From Niveibacterium microcysteis (lineage in GTDB: Bacteria > Pseudomonadota > Gammaproteobacteria > Burkholderiales > Rhodocyclaceae), in the NCBI RefSeq assembly GCF_017161445.1, contig NZ_CP071060.1, positions 2,790,001-2,854,000 of the forward strand: a stretch of DNA of 64,000 bases, given 5' to 3'. The position numbers and the translations under genes are program-made. A model generated the notes under the pieces. That model made no database searches and was not told the origin of the DNA. It worked only from the letters and a program-made list of their open reading frames with translations. The number at the start of each line of letters is the position of its first letter. Position 1 is the stretch's first letter. Positions 1 through 20,818 of the stretch are shown piece after piece.

Positions 1-521
1 GCCTACCCACTTGCCAAGCGGTGCTAGAGCAGAATGAACAACTCGATGGTCGATTCCTTTCTCCAGTCTATCTGCCTCGATTTGACTGGCTTCGTCATGA
101 TCATCGCGAGGAATTCATCGCAATTCTGGGCGCTTTCCATGACTCGCTAAGCCGCCACTTCGATCTACCGATTCTGGATGGCGAAGAAATGGCATTCCGC
201 TGCTATTGCGGTACTGGCGGCCTGATGGGATATCTGTCTAAGTTCCTTCGGCAGATGGTCTGGAATGCATTGGATGCCAAAAAGAACTCTATTAGCCTTC
301 AGGATCTAGCTCAAGCACATGATGAGGCTGTTTGGGCTAAATCCGGGCCACGTGGAATTCCAAACCCCTTCACCAAGGCGTTTTCCCACGCACCTACGGA
401 GGATATAGTTGCCCGCGTTCAAAGGATGGGAGTGCCCAAGGAGCCACAACCAAGTACTAGAACCAGGCCACCCGAAAGAAACGAAGGGTTCACTGTTCGG
501 CAGATCTTGAGCGCAACCTAA
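1..521 (+). CDS. TnsC/TniB-family transposition ATPase, 3' part only
   Basis: The frame is open through the left edge; GTG at 21 is an internal Val codon, not a start. About 173 C-terminal residues are visible, including LEQNEQL, LPRFDW and an IPNPF motif near the end, which fit the C-terminal half of the TnsC/TniB AAA+ proteins. Walker A and B motifs would lie upstream, outside the window. In Tn7-like elements this protein links the target selector (TnsD/TniQ) to the DDE transposase. Its TAA (519-521) shares one base with the ATG of the next gene, indicating translational coupling. The family call rests on motif recognition only. Confidence 0.8.
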   Translation, partial: LPTCQAVLEQNEQLDGRFLSPVYLPRFDWLRHDHREEFIAILGAFHDSLSRHFDLPILDGEEMAFRCYCGTGGLMGYLSKFLRQMVWNALDAKKNSISLQDLAQAHDEAVWAKSGPRGIPNPFTKAFSHAPTEDIVARVQRMGVPKEPQPSTRTRPPERNEGFTVRQILSAT

Positions 522-2695
522 TGTTGGTCCGCACTCCCAAGCCAGCCGACACGGAGAGCTTCCTGGGCTATTTGCTTCGTGTATCAGAATCCAACGGATA
601 CGACACGCCTTGGCGTATTTTGAAGTTAGCGGGAATATGCCAATCAGAAATGACCAAGGTAAGCTTTCCCGTCAGCAAAGTTTGCAAAATTCTGGGGGTG
701 AGCGCCGAATCTCTTAGTCATATTTCCTATAGGCATCCAGGCCACTATCCCGATGAATACAAAATACTCGGGCACGGACTAGGTTCGAGCATTAACCAAC
801 CTATTCTCCGGCTTGCTACTCCTGCCTTATGCCCTGAATGTGTCAGAGCAAACGGCTACATTGACGCATTCTATGATCTTAAGCTGGCGGTTGCCTGCCC
901 GGTACATAAGCGAGCCGTCATTACAAATTGTCCGACATGCGGGGAAATTCTAAGGTTCTTTCGTCCTGGCCTATTAACTTGTAGATGTGGCGCCTCGCTG
1001 GAAGATGCTGCGCCCGTGCCGGTCCCCGCCGCCGTAACTGATTTGATGAAAGTTATCGCAGCAAAGTTACATTCCGGCCCCCTCGACCAGGCTTCCGTTA
1101 TTCGCCAGTTGCCAATAGAAAGTCTGATGGCTATGCCTCTGCGTGCGTTGATAACAAAATTGCCAACCTTGTTACACCTCCACGGAACAAGCACATGCGA
1201 GCGCCCAATCGACGTGGTCGAACTTCTCGCAGAAGCTCTCTCTGACTGGCCCAAGGGATTGCACAGGTTTCTGGCCAAGGCTGAGGAGTTACATCGCGAC
1301 GACCCTATGTCGCATCTGATTCGTTCAAAACAGCTTTCCGCCTCCTTCTTCAGAAAGGAGATCCGTGAAAGCTTCGCCTGGCTGCAACAGGAACTCACTC
1401 AACATAGCCAGCACTCGCGTGGCAAGAGCATCCATTCACGCAGAAAGCTCCATGCGGAAGCACAGCGGCGCTTCCATTTGAGTGAAGAACTCGAGAGCGC
1501 CGATGTTGGCCTGCGCGCGGAGCCCCTATCGCATGCAACGCCCAATCACAAACTCCAAAAACGGGATGCAGCTGCTTATCTCGGTCTACCAGTGAGCGTC
1601 TTAGCAGCGCTTCAAGCTACGAGTCACTTTGCACAAAAGTATCGCACCGGTCCAAAGAGTGGATATCAACTGGCCGAATTAGATCTATTTTATTCACGAT
1701 TGCTTAAATCATCTCCACGCATACACCCGTCTAGAGTGGGAACAACGGCTACGGTCAGCATGAGCCACGCCTTGGGCAAATACCGTATGCACGATTCAAA
1801 GCAGAAGGCCGCGCTTGTCATGGCCTATCTTTCGGGCAGCCTTGCCTCTATCGGCAGGGTAGGCAACTCGACGAATGACATCCTTTTTAGAATTCGGGAT
1901 GTATCCGCTTTTGTAGCGTCAAGTCGCACGCATGCAGCGGGCGGAACACTGACTCAGCAACAGGCAGCTCAAACCCTCGGGTGCGATCTGCAAGCCATAC
2001 CAATTCTGGTATCAAACGGCTATCTAACTGCACGCTCCGCAAGAGAAGGAACGCGCATTACTCGAGCATCATTCGAGGGTTTTCTACAGAAATACATCCC
2101 CCTTTCGAAGATTGCAAAAGAGAATGCGACCAACTCACGTCGGCTAAAGTCGCTCTGCTCCAAAGCGGGAATTCCCATGCTTTTGACGCCAAGGCCGACT
2201 GGGAGCGAGGTGCCGTTCATACAGCGTTCAAGCCTAGAACTGTTGCTTGTTACAGCCACCCTTTATCCGAATAGAAAACAGGCGCAATTAGTTGCGTCTC
2301 ACACTCGCCATTCAGTAGTCGCTATCCTCAAGAGCTATTTGAGTGAGCTGACGAACCGTAAGGAACCGCTTCCAGTCCGCGCGGGGAGGCCTAATAAAGT
2401 GGCGATCGCCAGAACTTGTGGTTTCAGCCGGAACGTGCTTTACGACAACAACGAAGCACTCGAGCTCCTCGATAACTTCGTCGCCCAAGCGTCCATGCCA
2501 AGCACACCATTAGTTGCACTGCAGCGCTACCTGGAGGAGCTGCAGACGCGTCGAGAACAACTCCCTCTCCGTGCCGGAAAACCAAACAAACTTGCGATCG
2601 CCCGAGCCTGCGGATTCAATCGGAACGTGCTCTACGTCAACGCTGAAGTAGTTTCCCTTCTCAACACGTTTTCGTCCCAACAATCTACTCTTTGA
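521..2695 (+). CDS. TniQ/TnsD-family target-selection protein with duplicated C-terminal module
   Basis: This 724-residue protein opens with a TniQ-type N-terminus (ESFLGYLLRVSESNGY). Cys/His pairs follow that can bind zinc: C104/C107, C126/H129, C137/C140 and C154/C156. TniQ/TnsD proteins choose the insertion site and recruit TnsC. E. coli TnsD is 508 aa, so this one is long. The extra length includes two tandem modules at about residues 602-653 and 665-717. They match at 32 of 53 positions, each with an RAGxPNKxAIARxCGF core followed by RNVLY, and look like helix-turn-helix units. The start overlaps the preceding stop by one base. The family call is firm; the DNA-binding role of the repeats is inferred. 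Confidence 0.85.
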   Translation: MLVRTPKPADTESFLGYLLRVSESNGYDTPWRILKLAGICQSEMTKVSFPVSKVCKILGVSAESLSHISYRHPGHYPDEYKILGHGLGSSINQPILRLATPALCPECVRANGYIDAFYDLKLAVACPVHKRAVITNCPTCGEILRFFRPGLLTCRCGASLEDAAPVPVPAAVTDLMKVIAAKLHSGPLDQASVIRQLPIESLMAMPLRALITKLPTLLHLHGTSTCERPIDVVELLAEALSDWPKGLHRFLAKAEELHRDDPMSHLIRSKQLSASFFRKEIRESFAWLQQELTQHSQHSRGKSIHSRRKLHAEAQRRFHLSEELESADVGLRAEPLSHATPNHKLQKRDAAAYLGLPVSVLAALQATSHFAQKYRTGPKSGYQLAELDLFYSRLLKSSPRIHPSRVGTTATVSMSHALGKYRMHDSKQKAALVMAYLSGSLASIGRVGNSTNDILFRIRDVSAFVASSRTHAAGGTLTQQQAAQTLGCDLQAIPILVSNGYLTARSAREGTRITRASFEGFLQKYIPLSKIAKENATNSRRLKSLCSKAGIPMLLTPRPTGSEVPFIQRSSLELLLVTATLYPNRKQAQLVASHTRHSVVAILKSYLSELTNRKEPLPVRAGRPNKVAIARTCGFSRNVLYDNNEALELLDNFVAQASMPSTPLVALQRYLEELQTRREQLPLRAGKPNKLAIARACGFNRNVLYVNAEVVSLLNTFSSQQSTL

Positions 2696-2733
2696 TTCAG
2701 TATCAGACGCCGCTTTGCACGGCTATAAGACAA

Positions 2734-3121
2734 TGTCCGAATCGCCCCGGTCTTTTGGTGAGGCTCCAACTCTTGAGAAGTCGGAGCCATGAAGAATTCC
2801 CCGAAGTTTTACCCTGAGGTTGTGTGCGAGCGCGCAGCAGTATGGATTGTGTAAGAGCACCGAGGGGAGACCCCATCGAGGTGGGCATCTATCGAGTCCA
2901 TCTCTAGAAAGATTGGTTGCGCGCCACAGATGCTGCAGGCGTGGGTCCACCAGTACGAGGTCGACACAGGTGTGCGCGATGGCGTTAAGACTGTCGAGGC
3001 AGTGCGCCTGGCAGGCCAACCTCGAGGTCTATGGGGCAGAACGGGCTTGGCGCGAACCCAATCGCGAATCGGCTGAAGCGTCCGCAAGGGTACGTCCCTC
3101 ATACGGAGGTCGAAGCCGATG
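2734..3121 (+). pseudogene. Decayed IS3-family insertion sequence (orfA/orfB fragments)
   Basis: An orfA-like reading starts at ATG 2789 (MKNSPKFYPEV) and is broken by an in-frame TAA at 2852-2854. It then continues as [18 protein letters not shown] and [11 protein letters not shown], the signature of IS3-family (IS51-like) OrfA. From about 3020 another frame reads [15 protein letters not shown], matching the YGARxVWRxLNRE segment of the OrfB integrase. Most of orfB, including its DDE catalytic core, is missing. TGTCCGAATCGCCCC at 2734 may be the left inverted repeat. No right repeat was found. It has at least one stop, a frame change and a large deletion, so it is inactive. Confidence 0.8.
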
Positions 3122-3216
3122 AGCGTCGTCAACGCGCTGTTAGGCCGCGACGTCTGACTAAAACCAAATGGCGTCCTAATAATCTGGGGCGATTCAGCCC
3201 TTGAAGAAACCTGCGT

Positions 3217-3344
3217 CTTATGCATCAACAACGGAGTGGAATTGCAGCTTATGCGTAGTTTCTCTTGCAAGTTATCCCGTGCCGCGACGCTGCAAGCCTA
3301 TGATTATATTAGCCTACAGAACGCACCTTATGCGTTAACGGACA
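3217..3344 (-). repeat. Three spaced repeats at the predicted Tn7-like element end
   Basis: The core CTTATGCRT occurs at 3217, 3248 and 3327, always in the same orientation and extended by a conserved GC two bases before the core in at least two copies. Read inward from the end (minus strand), the copies share YGCATAAG followed by NYGC. The outermost begins TGTCCGTTAACGCATAAG at 3344. The layout resembles the spaced TnsB-binding sites of the Tn7 left end, which span about 150 bp. If correct, a 5-bp target duplication would be AAAGG (3345-3349), but the other end is not in the window. Function is inferred. Confidence 0.6.
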
Positions 3345-3346
3345 AA

Positions 3347-3377
3347 AGGCCACCTGATTTCAGGTGGCCTTTTTTTA
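3347..3377. terminator. Strong intrinsic terminator at the end of the nuo operon
   Basis: A perfect 11-bp stem (AGGCCACCTGA, 3347-3357, with 3360-3370) has a two-base apparent loop. It is followed by a T run on the plus strand and by TTTT on the minus strand. It lies 64 bp past the stop of the last minus-strand gene of the complex I cluster, so it probably ends that operon. It also insulates the cluster from the transposon. Confidence 0.85.
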
Positions 3378-14255: not shown

Positions 14256-15566
14256 TCAGCCTACGTAGATCTTGCTGCCTTCACGCTGAACCTCAACAGG
14301 CACCAGACAGCGCTTGTTGTCAACGTGATACTGGAACTCGCTACGGAAATGCTTGATGAAACTCTTGACCGGCATAGCAGCCGCATCACCTAGCGCGCAA
14401 ATAGTCCGACCCATGATGTTGTCGGAAACGCTGTCGAGCAAATCGATATCTTCTTGCCGACCTTGACCGTGTTCAATTCGATGAATGACGCGGTAAAGCC
14501 ATCCGGTTCCTTCCCGGCACGGCGTGCATTGGCCACACGACTCTTCGTGATAGAAGTACGACAAGCGCTCCAGCGCCTTGACCATGCAGGTGCTTTCGTC
14601 CATCACGATAACCGCGCCGGATCCAAGCATGGAGCCCGCTTTCGCAATACAGTCGTAATCCATCGTCGAGTCCATCATGATGGATGCCGGCAGCACCGGT
14701 GCTGACGAGCCACCGGGAATCACAGCCTTAAGCCTACGACCGCCGCGCATACCCCCCGCCATCTCCAACAATTCCGGGAATGGGGTACCGAGCGGAACTT
14801 CATAGTTGCCAGGACGATTTACATGTCCGGAAACCGAAAACAACTTGGTCCCACCGTTGTTTGGCTTCCCCAATGCCAGGAACGCCTCGCCGCCGTTATT
14901 AATGATGTACGGAATCGACGCAAAGGTCTCGGTGTTGTTAATCGTCGTCGGCTTGCCATAGAGCCCGAAGCTTGCAGGAAACGGCGGCTTGAATCGCGGC
15001 TGTCCTTTCTTGCCTTCGATTGACTCAAGCAATGCGGTCTCTTCTCCGCAGATGTACGCGCCGTATCCATGATGCGCAAACAAGTCAAAAGAAAACGACG
15101 ATCCAAGAATATTCTTGCCGAGGAATCCGGCCTCACGAGCTTCGGCAAGAGCCGCCTCGAAACGCTCGTAGATCTCGAATATCTCACCGTGGATGTAGTT
15201 ATATCCGCGTTCGCAGCCCATCGCGAACCCGGCAATGATCATGCCCTCGATGACCATATGCGGGTTATAGCGTAGAAGATCGCGGTCTTTGAACGTACCA
15301 GGTTCGCCTTCGTCCGAATTGCAGCAAACATACTTCGCACCAGGAAACTGGCGCGGCATGAAACTCCACTTCAGCCCCGTCGGGAAACCGGCTCCGCCAC
15401 GCCCCCGAAGCGCGGACTTCTTGACCTCAGCGATGACCACATCTGGAGTGATGCCATCGCTGATGATCTTTTTTAATGCTGCATAGCCCCCGCGCTTGAG
15501 ATAGTGCGAAAGGCTCCAAGTGTTGTCGCCATCGAGACCGGCGAGGAGAAACGCCTTTTCACTCAT
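14256..15566 (-). CDS. nuoF: NADH-quinone oxidoreductase subunit F (FMN, NADH site)
   Basis: This 436-residue subunit is where NADH is oxidised. [15 protein letters not shown] is the NADH/FMN-binding motif, and [12 protein letters not shown] holds the N3 4Fe-4S cluster with a fourth Cys near ICALGDAAA. The frame reaches up to 15620, but ATG at 15566 ([10 protein letters not shown]) overlaps the nuoE stop as ATGA and gives the normal length. This argues for coupled translation of E and F. Confidence 0.97.
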
Positions 15567-16039
15567 TTGCGTAGCTCGCTGATGAGTTGATCCATCTGCG
15601 TCTCGGTCATACGGCAGCACATCCGATGGTTATTCACAAGCAAAACGGGCGCGTCGCCACAAGCCCCCATGCATTCACCCTCTTTCAGGGTGAACTGGCC
15701 ATCCGGCGTCGTCTGATTGAATTCGATCCCAAGCTTGTGCTTGAGATACTCACCCGCATCGGCGCCACCAGAAAGCGCACACGGCAAATTGGTGCAGACC
15801 GTCAGTTTGTGCTTGCCGACCGGCTGAAGGTCATACATGTTGTAGAAACTGGCAACTTCGTACGCGGCCATCGCTGGCATGCAAAGATAGGCGGCCACGT
15901 ACTCGATCGTTTCAGCGGCGAGCCAGCCTTTTTCCTGCTGGGCGATGCGCAACGCAGCGATTACCGCCGACTGTTTCTGGTCCGCGGGATACTTGGCGAC
16001 TTCTTGGTCGATCTTGCCTAATGATTCCGAGTTCAACAT
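15563..16039 (-). CDS. nuoE: NADH-quinone oxidoreductase subunit E (2Fe-2S)
   Basis: This 158-residue thioredoxin-like subunit binds the N1a 2Fe-2S cluster through C82, C87, C123 and C127 (VCTNLPC and CMGAC). It forms the NADH module with NuoF and NuoG. The four-base overlap ATGA with nuoF indicates translational coupling. There are 36 bp to the nuoD stop upstream. Confidence 0.97.
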
Positions 16040-16075
16040 GACTCGTTCATCTCTCTTCTGAACGTCGGACTGCAG

Positions 16076-17329
16076 TTAACGGTCGATCTCGCCGAACACG
16101 ATATCCATCGTGCCAATAATCGCGACAACGTCCGCAATCATGTGGCCACGGGCAATAGCATCCATCGCGGCCAAATGCGCGAATCCCGGCGCGCGAAGCT
16201 TCACACGGTAAGGCTTGTTTGCACCGTCGGAAATCGCATACACCCCAAACTCCCCCTTTGGATGTTCAACAGCGGCATACGCTTCGCCTTCTGGAACATG
16301 CATCCCTTCGGTGAACAGTTTGAAGTGGTGAATCAACTCCTCCATGTTCTCCTTCATGGCCGAACGAGAGGGAGGTGCAACTTTATGGTTATCGCAAATC
16401 ACCGGACCCGGATTCTTGCGCAACCAGTCAATACATTGCCGAATAATTCGGTTGGACTGCCGCATCTCTTCCATGCGAACGAGGTAGCGATCGTAGCAGT
16501 CGCCATTCACACCGACCGGAATGTCGAAATCAACACGGTCGTAAACCTCGTAAGGCTGCTTTTTGCGCAAATCCCATTCGACGCCCGACCCACGCAGCAT
16601 TGCCCCGGTGAACCCATGAGCCAGCGCTTCTTCCGGCGACACCACGCCGATCCCGACAGTACGTTGCTTCCAGATGCGATTATCCGTCAGCAGCGTCTCA
16701 TACTCGTCGACATAACCAGGGAAACGACGCGTGAAGTCATCCAGAAAGTCGAGTAAAGATCCTTGTCTGGCTTCGTTCAACTGCGCGACCGTTGCCGAAT
16801 TGCGGTACTTCGACACCTCGTATTTGGGCATCTGGTCCGGCAAATCACGATAAACGCCGCCGGGCCTGTAGTACGCCGCGTGCATACGAGCGCCCGATAC
16901 CGCCTCGTAGGCGTCCATCAGATCTTCGCGTTCGCGGAATGTATAGAGAACCATCGTCATCGCACCAATATCCAGCGCGTGCGTGCCGATGTTCAGGAGG
17001 TGATTCAGGATGCGCGTAATCTCATCGAACATCACTCGGATGTATTGAGCGCGAAGCGGCACTTCCAAGCCGAGCAATCGTTCAATGGACATGCAATAAG
17101 CATGTTCATTGCACATCATCGAGACATAGTCCAGCCGATCCATGTACGGAACAGACTGGATCCAGGTGCGCGTCTCAGCGAGCTTCTCGGTGCCGCGGTG
17201 AAGCAACCCGATATGCGGATCGGCGCGCTCTACAACCTCGCCATCCAGCTCGAGAACCAGACGCAAAACGCCGTGAGCGGCGGGGTGCTGCGGCCCGAAA
17301 TTGATTGTGTAATTACGAATCTCAGCCAT
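16076..17329 (-). CDS. nuoD: NADH-quinone oxidoreductase subunit D (49-kDa type)
   Basis: This 417-residue subunit forms the quinone pocket with Nuo[15 protein letters not shown] is the conserved loop with the quinone-contacting His, and [14 protein letters not shown] follows. It is separate from nuoC here, unlike the fused NuoCD of E. coli. ATG at 17329 overlaps the end of nuoC by 8 bp. A TTG two codons earlier is a less likely start. Confidence 0.97.
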
Positions 17330-17927
17330 GCCCAACCTGCCCGTAGGTTTCTTCGCGAACGATTCGTGGCGTTACTTCACGCGGTTCAATAGTGACGGGT
17401 TGATAGACCACTCGCCCCTGTTCCGCGTCGTAGCGCATTTCGACAAAGCCAGAAATCGGGAAATCCTTGCGGAATGGATGTCCGACGAAACCGTAGTCAG
17501 TCAGGATTCGACGCAGATCAGGATGCCCCTCAAACATCAGGCCAAACAGATCGAACGCTTCACGCTCAAACCAGTTCGCACTTGGCCAAACGCCAACTAC
17601 TGACGCTACCACTGGGAATTCGGCAGATTCCGCAAACACCCGCAGACGCAAACGCCAGTTATTCCGCACCGACAGCAAATGAGAGACGCCGGCAAACCGT
17701 GCCACAGACGACGAACGCGTCGAGTGCGTTGAGTAATCAACGCCGCACAAATCGATCAGCTGTTCAAACCCAAGACTTGGGTCATCTCTCAACGCAAACG
17801 CCACAGCAAGGTAGTCCTTCGCGGAAACCTCAATGGTGACCTCTCCGCGATCGCAGACGATTGTCTGGATCCGCGGACCGAGGACAGCATGTAGCGCCTC
17901 TTGCAGTTTTTCGAGCTTTGCACTCAT
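17322..17927 (-). CDS. nuoC: NADH-quinone oxidoreductase subunit C (30-kDa type)
   Basis: This 201-residue hydrophilic subunit of the connecting arm has the signature [39 protein letters not shown], given here only for orientation by its parts EREAFDLFG and HPFRKDFP. It begins 14 bp after the nuoB stop and overlaps nuoD at its 3' end. Length and order fit the separate C and D arrangement of betaproteobacteria. Confidence 0.96.
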
Positions 17928-17941
17928 GAGGGCTCTTTGCC

Positions 17942-18418
17942 TTATCGAGCGATCGTGTTGGTTCTCTTGATCTTGTTCTGCAACTGGATGATCCCGTACA
18001 GAAGCGCCTCAGCGGTCGGAGGACAGCCAGGAACGTAAACGTCCACCGGCACAATACGATCACATCCCCGGACAACCGAATAGGAATAGTGGTAGTAGCC
18101 GCCACCGTTGGCACACGACCCCATCGAAATCACCCAACGCGGCTCGGCCATCTGGTCATAGACTTTGCGAAGGGCTGGCGCCATCTTGTTGCAGAGCGTT
18201 CCAGCAACGATCATGACATCAGACTGACGAGGGCTCGGTCGGAATACAACCCCAAAACGATCAAGGTCGTAACGCGAGCACCCCGCGTGGATCATTTCGA
18301 CGGCACAACACGCAAGACCGAAGGTCATTGGCCACAGCGAGCCCGTTCGCGTCCAATTCAGAACGCTATCCAAGGTCGTGGTAACAAAACCCTCGCGGAA
18401 TACACCTTCAACACTCAT
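17942..18418 (-). CDS. nuoB: NADH-quinone oxidoreductase subunit B (cluster N2)
   Basis: This 158-residue subunit carries the terminal cluster N2. The ligands are C37, C38 (the adjacent pair in GLACCAVEM), C102 (GSCANGGG) and C132 (PGCPP). ATG at 18418 ([11 protein letters not shown]) is chosen over 18430 because homologues start there. It hands electrons to quinone at the NuoD interface. It follows nuoA by about 40 bp. Confidence 0.97.
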
Positions 18419-18457
18419 TGCGTCCCCCAACGCCTCGCCCCAACGCGAAACGTACGG

Positions 18458-18832
18458 TTATTCCCAGTCCAGCGCGCCGCGCTTGCGCACGTAGATATAG
18501 CCAACAATCAAGACACCCAGAAACACAAGCATCTCGAAGAAGCCAAATAGACGAATCGACTCGTTGCCCGCAATTTCCTTGAGAATTGATGCCCAAGGAA
18601 TCAGAAAGGCAACCTCGATATCAAAGAGGATGAAAAGAATTGCAATCAGGTAATAACGCACATCAAATTTGATGCGCGCATCCTCGAACGCCTCAAAGCC
18701 ACACTCATAGGGAGAGAGCTTTTCTGGCTCGGGATTGTGGCGCCCAAGAATGCGCCCAGCGAGCAGCATCACGCCGCCTACCGCAATACCGACAAGGATG
18801 AAAATCAATACCGGGAAATAGTTCTCGAGCAT
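18458..18832 (-). CDS. nuoA: NADH-quinone oxidoreductase subunit A
   Basis: This 124-residue protein has three membrane helices and is the first gene of the complex I operon. The loop YECGFEAF contains the conserved Cys of the quinone-access region, and [21 protein letters not shown] is the typical second helix with its acidic residues. The tRNA-Leu gene lies 64 bp upstream with a hairpin between them, so nuo may have its own promoter or use read-through. Confidence 0.96.
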
Positions 18833-18864
18833 GATCGTAGAGTCGGGAATTGCATCAGATGGAG

Positions 18865-18888
18865 AAACGCCCGCTTACGCGGGCGTTT
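18865..18888 (-). terminator. Hairpin between tRNA-Leu and nuoA
   Basis: AAACGCCCGC (18865-18874) pairs with 18879-18888 around a four-base loop. The minus transcript lacks a long T run after the stem (CTCC follows), so termination may be partial. It would let tRNA 3' processing and some read-through into nuoA coexist. Confidence 0.5.
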
Positions 18889-18896
18889 CGAATTAT

Positions 18897-18981
18897 TGGT
18901 GCCGACGGTGAGACTCGAACTCACACGGCTTGCGCCACCACCCCCTCAAGATGGCGTGTCTACCAATTTCACCACGTCGGC
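18897..18981 (-). tRNA. tRNA-Leu (anticodon GAG)
   Basis: The 85-nt class II tRNA has acceptor stem GCCGACG/CGTCGGC, discriminator A and an encoded CCA. The D-loop region is AATTGGTAGACACGC, the anticodon loop TTGAGGG gives GAG, there is a long variable arm, and the T arm is GTTCGAGTC. Its position between secG and nuoA is conserved in betaproteobacteria and resembles the secG-leuU pair of E. coli. Confidence 0.97.
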
Positions 18982-19037
18982 ACGCTTACAACAGAAAAGA
19001 ATTATATATAAACAATTCAGCCTTGCCAAGAATTTCT

Positions 19038-19391
19038 TTACTTCGGAATCTCTTGGGCCGCACCCGGGGCACTCGCAGGTTTCTCGGCCGTTGCCGGCTG
19101 CGATTGCACTGCTGGCGCGCCCTCCATGACACTCTTTGCGGGGCCAGCGCGATGGCTTGCCAAGTAGGTCAGCGCCAAACTCGTGACGAAGAAGACCGTA
19201 GCCAAGACCGCGGTCGTTCGGCTCAGAAAATTCGCCGAACCCGACGCACCAAAAAGACTGCCAGATGCGCCACCGCCAAATGACGCACCCATGTCCGCGC
19301 CTTTGCCGTGCTGCACCAACACCAAGCCGATCACTGCAACGCCCACGAGAACGTGAACCGTCAGGACAAGGCCGAAGAATATTCCGCTCAC
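19038..19391 (-). CDS. secG: Preprotein translocase subunit SecG
   Basis: The 117-residue protein from GTG at 19391 ([18 protein letters not shown]) has two membrane helices separated by a Gly/Ser-rich loop ([22 protein letters not shown]), the SecG signature. It assists SecYEG export. A Pro/Ala/Gln C-terminal tail is usual. The frame extends to 19454, but the GTG fits homologue starts. It lies directly after glmM, with no tpiA gene between them. Confidence 0.93.
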
Positions 19392-19462
19392 GCGATACCC
19401 CAGTTTAATTACTACAAAACCCGGCAGTGTAGTCCAGCCTCGCGCCAGGCACAAGCCACGCC

Positions 19463-20818
19463 CTACTCCAACGCTTGGCGAACCGTCTCGGCAAGCCGTT
19501 GGGCGACCGCTTCAACCTGCGTGGGATCTTCGCCCTCAACCATTACGCGAAGCAGCGGTTCGGTGCCGGACGCGCGAAGCAAGACGCGGCCGCGGTCACC
19601 CAGTTCCAGCTCTGCCGCGGTTACCGCATCCTGAATGCTCCGATCGGATTTCCAGTCGAAACCGCCGGCGGTGCGAACGTTCACAAGCCGCTGAGGAAAG
19701 AACTTGAGCGCACCACAGGCGTCGGCAAGGGTCTCACCCGCATCGCGCAACGCTGCAAGGACCTGCAAGGCGGCAACAATACCGTCGCCGGTGGAGTGGC
19801 GGTCCAGGCAGATGATATGGCCCGAATTCTCGCCACCTAACTTCCATCCGCGCTGCTCAAGCAACTCAAGCACATAGCGGTCACCAACCTTGGCGCGCAC
19901 GAATTCAACGCCTAGCGCCTCGATCGCGCGCTGAAATCCAAGGTTGCTCATCAACGTACCAACGACGCCGGGCAGTCGGCCCTGAGCCTTCTGCATGCGC
20001 GCGATTACATAGATCAACATATCGCCGTCATAGATGCGACCGGCGCGGTCCACCATCATGAGGCGATCGCCATCGCCATCAAGCGAGATACCGATATCGG
20101 CGCCTTGCGCCAAGGTAAAAGCGCGGATCGCCTCAGGGACGGTGGCACCTACCTGATCGTTGATGTTGAAGCCATTAGGCTCCTTGCCGATCGCAACGAC
20201 CTCTGCACCGAGTTCATGAAATACACGTGGCGCAATGTGATATGCGGCGCCATGAGCACAATCCACTGCAATCTTCAGACCACGCAGATCAAGGTCATTC
20301 GGAAACGTGCTCTTGCAGAATTCGATATACCTGCCGGCAGCATCATCGATACGGCGCGCACGCCCCATGGATGCGGAATCCGCACAACCAATGGGCTGAT
20401 CGAGCCGCTCCTCAATGGCGGTCTCTGTCGCGTCCGGAAGTTTTGCGCCGCGAGCCGAAAAGAACTTAATACCGTTGTCGTAATAAGGGTTGTGAGAGGC
20501 GGAAATCACGACCCCTGCATCAAGACGAAGCGCCCGCGTCAAATACGCGACCCCAGGGGTAGGAATCGGTCCAGCCAACACCACGTCAACACCAGCCGCA
20601 GCGAAGCCGGCCTCCAAAGCGGCCTCAAGCATATAGCCGGAGACGCGAGTATCCTTGCCAATCAGCACCGTTGGCCGCTCATGCCCGCGTGTCCCCTGCT
20701 GTTCGGCACACAGTGTTCGACCCGCCGCGTACCCCAGTCGCATCACAAAGTCAGGCGTGATCGGAGCATTGCCTACACGTCCCCGCACTCCATCCGTGCC
20801 GAAATACTTGCGCGCCAT
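19463..20818 (-). CDS. glmM: Phosphoglucosamine mutase
   Basis: This 451-residue enzyme converts glucosamine-6-phosphate to glucosamine-1-phosphate for UDP-GlcNAc and peptidoglycan synthesis. It starts [13 protein letters not shown] at ATG 20818. The active-site Ser is S108 in ISASHNP, and the metal loop is DGDGDR. It has a C-terminal phosphate-binding [12 protein letters not shown]. Upstream in-frame codons back to 20884 overlap the folP end and are not needed. It is grouped with folP and ftsH as in E. coli. Confidence 0.97.

Follow-up and report, generated by a model that had tools for sequence, protein, structure and literature searches.

The 64,000-nucleotide stretch of the Niveibacterium microcysteis chromosome analyzed here (the window; positions 2790001 to 2854000 of contig C1 in a 4.85-Mb genome, such that a window coordinate equals the C1 coordinate minus 2790000) opens inside a Tn7-like transposon. 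This element is complete and spans C1:2766138–2793344 (27,207 bp), wherein its right-hand 3,344 bp occupy window positions 1 to 3344 (plus strand), as delimited by termini, end sites and the flanking AAAGG, and the remaining 23,863 bp lie to the left of the window. It begins 23 bp past the stop codon of nrdJ, which encodes an adenosylcobalamin (B12)-dependent, class II ribonucleotide reductase (NrdJ_Z, 611 bits; cut-off 400). The features tested identify the element as a Tn7-like transposon, and its target is what distinguishes it. We consider it probable, at roughly 0.83, that it represents a protein-guided transposon with the 3′ end of nrdJ as its homing site. A preliminary description of the window had recognized the Tn7-like character of this region, but the nrdJ target site is not visible from the window.

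Both boundaries of the element can be placed precisely. It carries TGT/ACA ends with several TnsB-type sites at each, inverted between the ends. The right terminus, ...GGACA, ends at window position 3344, exactly where the preliminary description had put it, and the left terminus, TGTGAGTTACAGCATAAG, begins at C1:2766138, which supplies the matching end with inverted GCATAAG repeats that had been anticipated, 23.9 kb left of the window. The three same-orientation CTTATGCRT repeats noticed earlier are at window positions 3217, 3248 and 3327, all on the plus strand, with no other copy in the 64 kb. By chance, 0.48 copies are expected per window, and three or more arose in 1 of 100 shuffles. The corresponding TnsB-type sites, located by matrix scan and motif, are on the minus strand at window 3208..3226 (inner), 3239..3257 (middle) and 3318..3336 (outer). 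In C1 coordinates, these sites (2793208, 2793239 and 2793318) are the inverted partners of sites at 2766146, 2766167 and 2766189. As had been proposed from the window, the end on the 3′ side of tniQ is of the left type, with three spaced sites, whereas the nrdJ-facing end has three sites 21 to 22 bp apart and is of the right type.

A wider version of the motif, GCATAAGNYGCR, occurs 8 times in the genome, and five of these copies are at the two ends of the element; the same pattern read backwards, used as a control, has 13 copies genome-wide. The possibility that the repeats are scattered throughout the genome, which the preliminary description had named as grounds for abandoning the idea, is ruled out by this distribution. 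In a matrix scan of 40 kb, the six end sites score 18.4 to 24.1 and the next best 13.4. Because the matrix was built from those same six sites, this gap (18.4 versus 13.4) is partly by construction, and the genome-wide motif count is the stronger control. A matrix built only from the nrdJ-side sites placed just one of the three window sites among the top ten of 99 kb, and thus the sites of the two ends are similar but not identical.

The predicted 5-bp target duplication, AAAGG, is present at both termini (left copy, C1:2766133–2766137; right copy, window 3345..3349). The left flank reads ...ACAAAAAAGG followed by TGTGAG, and the right flank reads ...GGACA followed by AAAGGCC. A genome of the same genus (G207, locus L070) provides the empty site, reading ...CAAACAAGAAGGCCACC... 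without the element, with flanks that are 95% identical to our locus over 997 bp and 93% identical over 1,507 bp. The nrdJ end is present in all seven genomes of the genus sample, including our own, and no element was seen at loci L072, L074 and L075 as judged by eye.

The nrdJ product ends in ...KDGCDFCTACGAVGTCG*, and five related elements elsewhere lie 2 to 31 bp downstream of either nrdJ or a split nrdJb. These are found in Mitsuaria sp. WAJ17 (G781, locus L038; TnsB match, 53%; 31 bp), a Rhodocyclaceae metagenome-assembled genome (G782, L036; 59%; 11 bp), G384 (47%; 29 bp), G464 (32%; 30 bp behind the split nrdJb) and G1165 (50.5% over 370 residues; 2 bp), the last of which came from a later search after the clade had been recognized. 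A further clade member, L037, is on a 5-kb contig whose context is unreadable. The G782 element is complete over two contigs, C18 with the nrdJ-facing end and C37 with the opposite one, and ACGCT is present at both ends; the Nudix gene beyond it encodes a product with 58.6% identity to the Nudix neighbor of our element. In G384, a single contig holds the whole element, which runs for about 31.1 kb between TGTGGGAACC and ...CCCACA and is flanked on either side by CGAAA. In all six elements with readable context, the end facing nrdJ is the one with closely spaced sites. The opposite end of the Mitsuaria element was not found within 36 kb. At L038:7337–7376, this locus also carries an additional, degenerate site 29 bp outside three good sites; a TGT belonging to it lies 2 bp past the nrdJ stop codon, and the site may mark the true end or be a trace of an earlier insertion.

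The nrdJ neighbors also group by their transposases. In a TnsB tree of 40 entries, which omits G1165, duplicate loci and entries aligned over fewer than 350 residues and represents our tnsB by its second frame only, the five nrdJ entries and L037 form one branch with support of 95/95 (99/98 when the long branch G464 is removed), and no nrdJ entry falls outside it. The location of these elements behind nrdJ, together with the single TnsB clade formed by the nrdJ neighbors, suggests that the 3′ end of nrdJ is probably what TniQ recognizes, in the way that TnsD recognizes glmS. In a tree of 35 TniQ domains the five nrdJ members also group together, but with support of 81/62, and 50 of 500 label shuffles group the five as well.

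Counts from wider samples indicate how often such an association occurs. Among 55 TnsB places in 45 genomes of the order sample, compared with 49 typed reductase matches, 11 are within 70 kb of a reductase match and all are downstream of it, with about 2 expected by chance according to our rough reckoning. One of the 11 is at nrdJ (G464) and ten are at nrdA. Reductase matches on contigs other than those of the TnsB places were excluded after checking by eye; G737 was not included in the reductase search, and G653 and G732 gave no match in it. Nine of ten further stretches were tested, L131 being below the length filter. One (G1165) has nrdJ, and eight (TnsB matches of 33–37%) have no reductase in the 19 to 20 kb read. 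Of 369 class-level genomes, a single one besides our own reaches E 1e-100 with the TnsB profile, and its match lies behind nrdB. Fourteen of 394 genomes around G782, including G782, reach E 1e-120, some of them already met under other labels. Scans of the whole collection yielded three loci for TnsB and, for TniQ, 26 pattern matches with no relative; 61 matches in viral contigs included no relative, and nine plasmid records have partial TniQ similarity, none at 80% coverage. The proposed nrdJ-homing clade is uncommon.

In the empty site of G207, the hairpin corresponding to window 3348–3376 is directly behind nrdJ. In our genome, this original terminator-like hairpin and T run (window 3348..3376, plus strand) is now outside the end of the element remote from nrdJ. 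A hairpin with a T-rich run begins 76 to 134 bases inside the nrdJ-facing end in all five ends computed, with energies of -10.3 to -27.8 kcal/mol. Among 300 random 200-bp windows of our own region evaluated by the same rule, 13 reach -10.3 and 2 reach -19.6. The G1165 end fails the rule, such that five of six nrdJ-facing ends pass, although a GC-rich hairpin is visible there by eye. The element may therefore carry a replacement terminator for nrdJ, and a hairpin in that position suggests a way for these elements to avoid harming the adjoining gene. Tn7 itself is said, in the title of one paper cited in PMC2918618, to enter the glmS terminator.

The transposition genes are consistent with this type of element. 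Reading leftward from the window, tnsA (C1:2786745–2787473) matches Pfam Tn7_TnsA-like_N with 36.5 bits (above the cut-off of 26.5) and NCBIfam TnsA_like with 51.7 bits (below the cut-off of 110). The tnsB-type DDE transposase gene expected to the left is present at C1:2787731–2789515; its product scores 30.4 bits for Pfam Mu-transpos_C (above the cut-off of 21.7) and 23.9 bits for rve (below the cut-off of 32.6), and D174, D184, D259 and E295 are invariant across five TnsBs. With C1:2787474–2787803, this frame makes up a tnsB split over two overlapping frames (L003:12474–14515). The TnsC-type and TniQ-type genes read from the window are borne out by family matches. The tnsC gene (C1:2789508–2790521; 337 aa), whose 3′ part is window 1..521 on the plus strand, scores 111 bits for Pfam TniB and 56 bits for AAA_22, and tniQ (C1:2790521–2792695, window 521..2695, plus strand; 724 aa) scores 36.4 bits for Pfam TniQ (cut-off 27). 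TniQ matches TniQ structures by profile and by fold. Model and fold matches describe it as a TnsD-like selector, with a TniQ domain and a long C-terminal extension in which a short repeat occurs twice alongside winged-helix domains.

We propose that the long TniQ would bind the conserved last codons of nrdJ via its C-terminal extension, while its TniQ domain would recruit TnsC. TnsA and TnsB, acting on the GCATAAG sites at both ends, would then excise the element and reinsert it 2 to about 30 bp past the stop codon, with the closely spaced end always pointing to nrdJ. The gene would be left intact, and the lost terminator would be replaced by the one within the transposon end. Both the binding and the transposition reactions assigned to these proteins are predictions from sequence.

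Alternatively, the feature recognized by TniQ might lie close to nrdJ but outside the coding 3′ end, for instance in the terminator hairpin that follows the gene. Two observations weigh on that side and against recognition of the coding end: the insertion distance varies from 2 to 31 bp, and our element entered at the base of the terminator stem. However, the stretch separating the stop codon from the element varies freely across the six cases, whereas the coding end is conserved, and insertion at 2 or 11 bp would split a downstream binding site from the gene. We therefore regard this explanation as unlikely. Common descent of related hosts, rather than homing, could also place elements behind nrdJ. 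Several hosts are indeed related betaproteobacteria, and the neighborhood of nrdJ and a Nudix gene is common to our genome and G782 (Nudix proteins 58.6% identical), which likewise tells against homing. Yet the distances from the stop codon and the 5-bp duplications differ, and such independent insertion points largely contradict common descent, as does the empty site in a genome of the same genus. We judge this explanation very improbable.

A separate matter is whether our own copy is a decayed, immobile relic, which concerns its present state and not the kind of element, and on which we are evenly divided. The tnsB gene occupies two overlapping frames, compared with a single frame in L036, L037, L038 and L068, and thus this copy may be inactive; a remnant of an IS3-family insertion sequence (IS) between tniQ and the terminus points the same way. 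On the other hand, the two ends are intact, as is the duplication, tnsA, tnsC and tniQ are open, and the frame change in tnsB could be an assembly error or be programmed. We considered a programmed frameshift given that the frames overlap, although the four relatives have one frame.

Homing to nrdJ resembles the behavior of Tn7 in several respects. Tn7 makes a 5-bp target duplication, as does our element. In Tn7, tnsA adjoins the glmS-side end, whereas in our element cargo lies between the nrdJ-side end and tnsA, and the tns genes are at the far end. The two share tnsA, tnsB and tnsC together with a selector of the TniQ family that has a C-terminal extension. They differ in target (glmS versus nrdJ) and in the distance of insertion, which is variable here. 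One selector was seen in our element; neither TnsE nor a second selector, as in the plasmid-seeking second pathway of Tn7, was among the family hits of the scanned open reading frames (ORFs), a scan in which no TnsE model was used. As far as the available parts of PMC2918618 and PMC11406308 describe Tn7, TGT/ACA ends, asymmetric TnsB sites with closely spaced sites facing the target gene, and insertion shortly behind an intact conserved gene are further likenesses. Tn6022 likewise is Tn7-like and goes to a fixed target in the chromosome (comM, using TniQ and TnsF), but according to the accessible portion of PMC10293859 it inserts within comM and requires TnsF, whereas our element leaves nrdJ whole. 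The large TniQ/TnsD homing proteins of type I-B and I-D CRISPR-associated transposons, which use glmS or tRNA genes, are comparable in the parts of PMC10293859 and PMC11406308 at hand; by contrast, no cas gene was seen among the scanned ORFs of our element.

The protein-read homing sites named in the available part of PMC11406308 are few (glmS, yhiN, comM, parE and tRNA genes). Neither nrdJ nor nrdB was found as a Tn7-like target in the literature searched, partly by title; supplements and most subscription papers were outside the search, and thus an nrdJ site may be listed somewhere. Term searches found no 'nrd' in PMC10293859 or PMC8649781, and neither 'nrd' nor 'reductase' in PMC11406308. 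A clade that homes to nrdJ would add a gene for DNA precursor synthesis to the targets of Tn7-like transposons. The 55 TniQ homologues found besides our own could serve to study the way in which TniQ extensions recognize DNA, and an nrdJ-homing element could become a site-specific insertion tool for nrdJ-bearing bacteria.

Similar arrangements were observed at a second reductase gene. At 9 of 10 loci near nrdA (L100–L108; by eye), tandem 21- to 22-bp repeats resembling a transposon end begin immediately after the stop codon of nrdB, and four of these loci have a TGT at +5 to +9. This count leaves out the nrdA neighbors G609 and G463 and three genomes of the same genus. Nine of the TnsBs at these loci form their own branch (94/89); G940, where the gene order is nrdA-nrdB-tnsA (L114:14245–15466), stands apart. 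From its sequence context, nrdB looks like another homing site. We lean toward a broader proposal, wherein Tn7-like transposons would in general find a safe place to land at the 3′ ends of ribonucleotide reductase genes. Of the TnsB clades, one would read nrdJ or nrdJb (class II) and at least one other would read nrdB (class I), each inserting behind the codons of a hardly changeable enzyme tail and bringing, within the end that faces the gene, a spare terminator that preserves correct termination of the host gene.

Cargo, which the preliminary description had expected to the left of the window, was found there, between the nrdJ-side end and tnsA. It includes an MBL-fold protein (336 bits versus 220) and an E2-E1-JAB fusion (672 bits versus 320) of the anti-phage 6A-MBL system; this gene pair is followed by a patatin-like gene (C1:2782338–2785585; L003:7338–10585), and a literature search on the name 6A-MBL found no paper. 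Also present are a HAD_SAK_2 ORF, an MFS transporter (Pfam, 93 bits; below NCBIfam cut-offs), a TPR-CHAT protein, a TPR protein, an Xre/MbcA/ParS-type ORF and a piece resembling the end of a type I restriction subunit fused to a YgjP-like domain. No family was found for six further ORFs (L004:13925–14641, 15448–17124, 17167–18786, 18654–19334 and 19363–19761, and L003:4088–5152). Start codons of the cargo genes are uncertain in this GC-rich DNA. The IS remnant mentioned in the preliminary description (window about 2736..3010) is about 70% identical by blastn, in the six matches listed, to plasmid stretches mostly named IS3 family transposase. Elsewhere in the genome, a second TniQ-type ORF (L001, C1:1762979) lies beside an ORF on the opposite strand, which we take to resemble an IS21 transposase.
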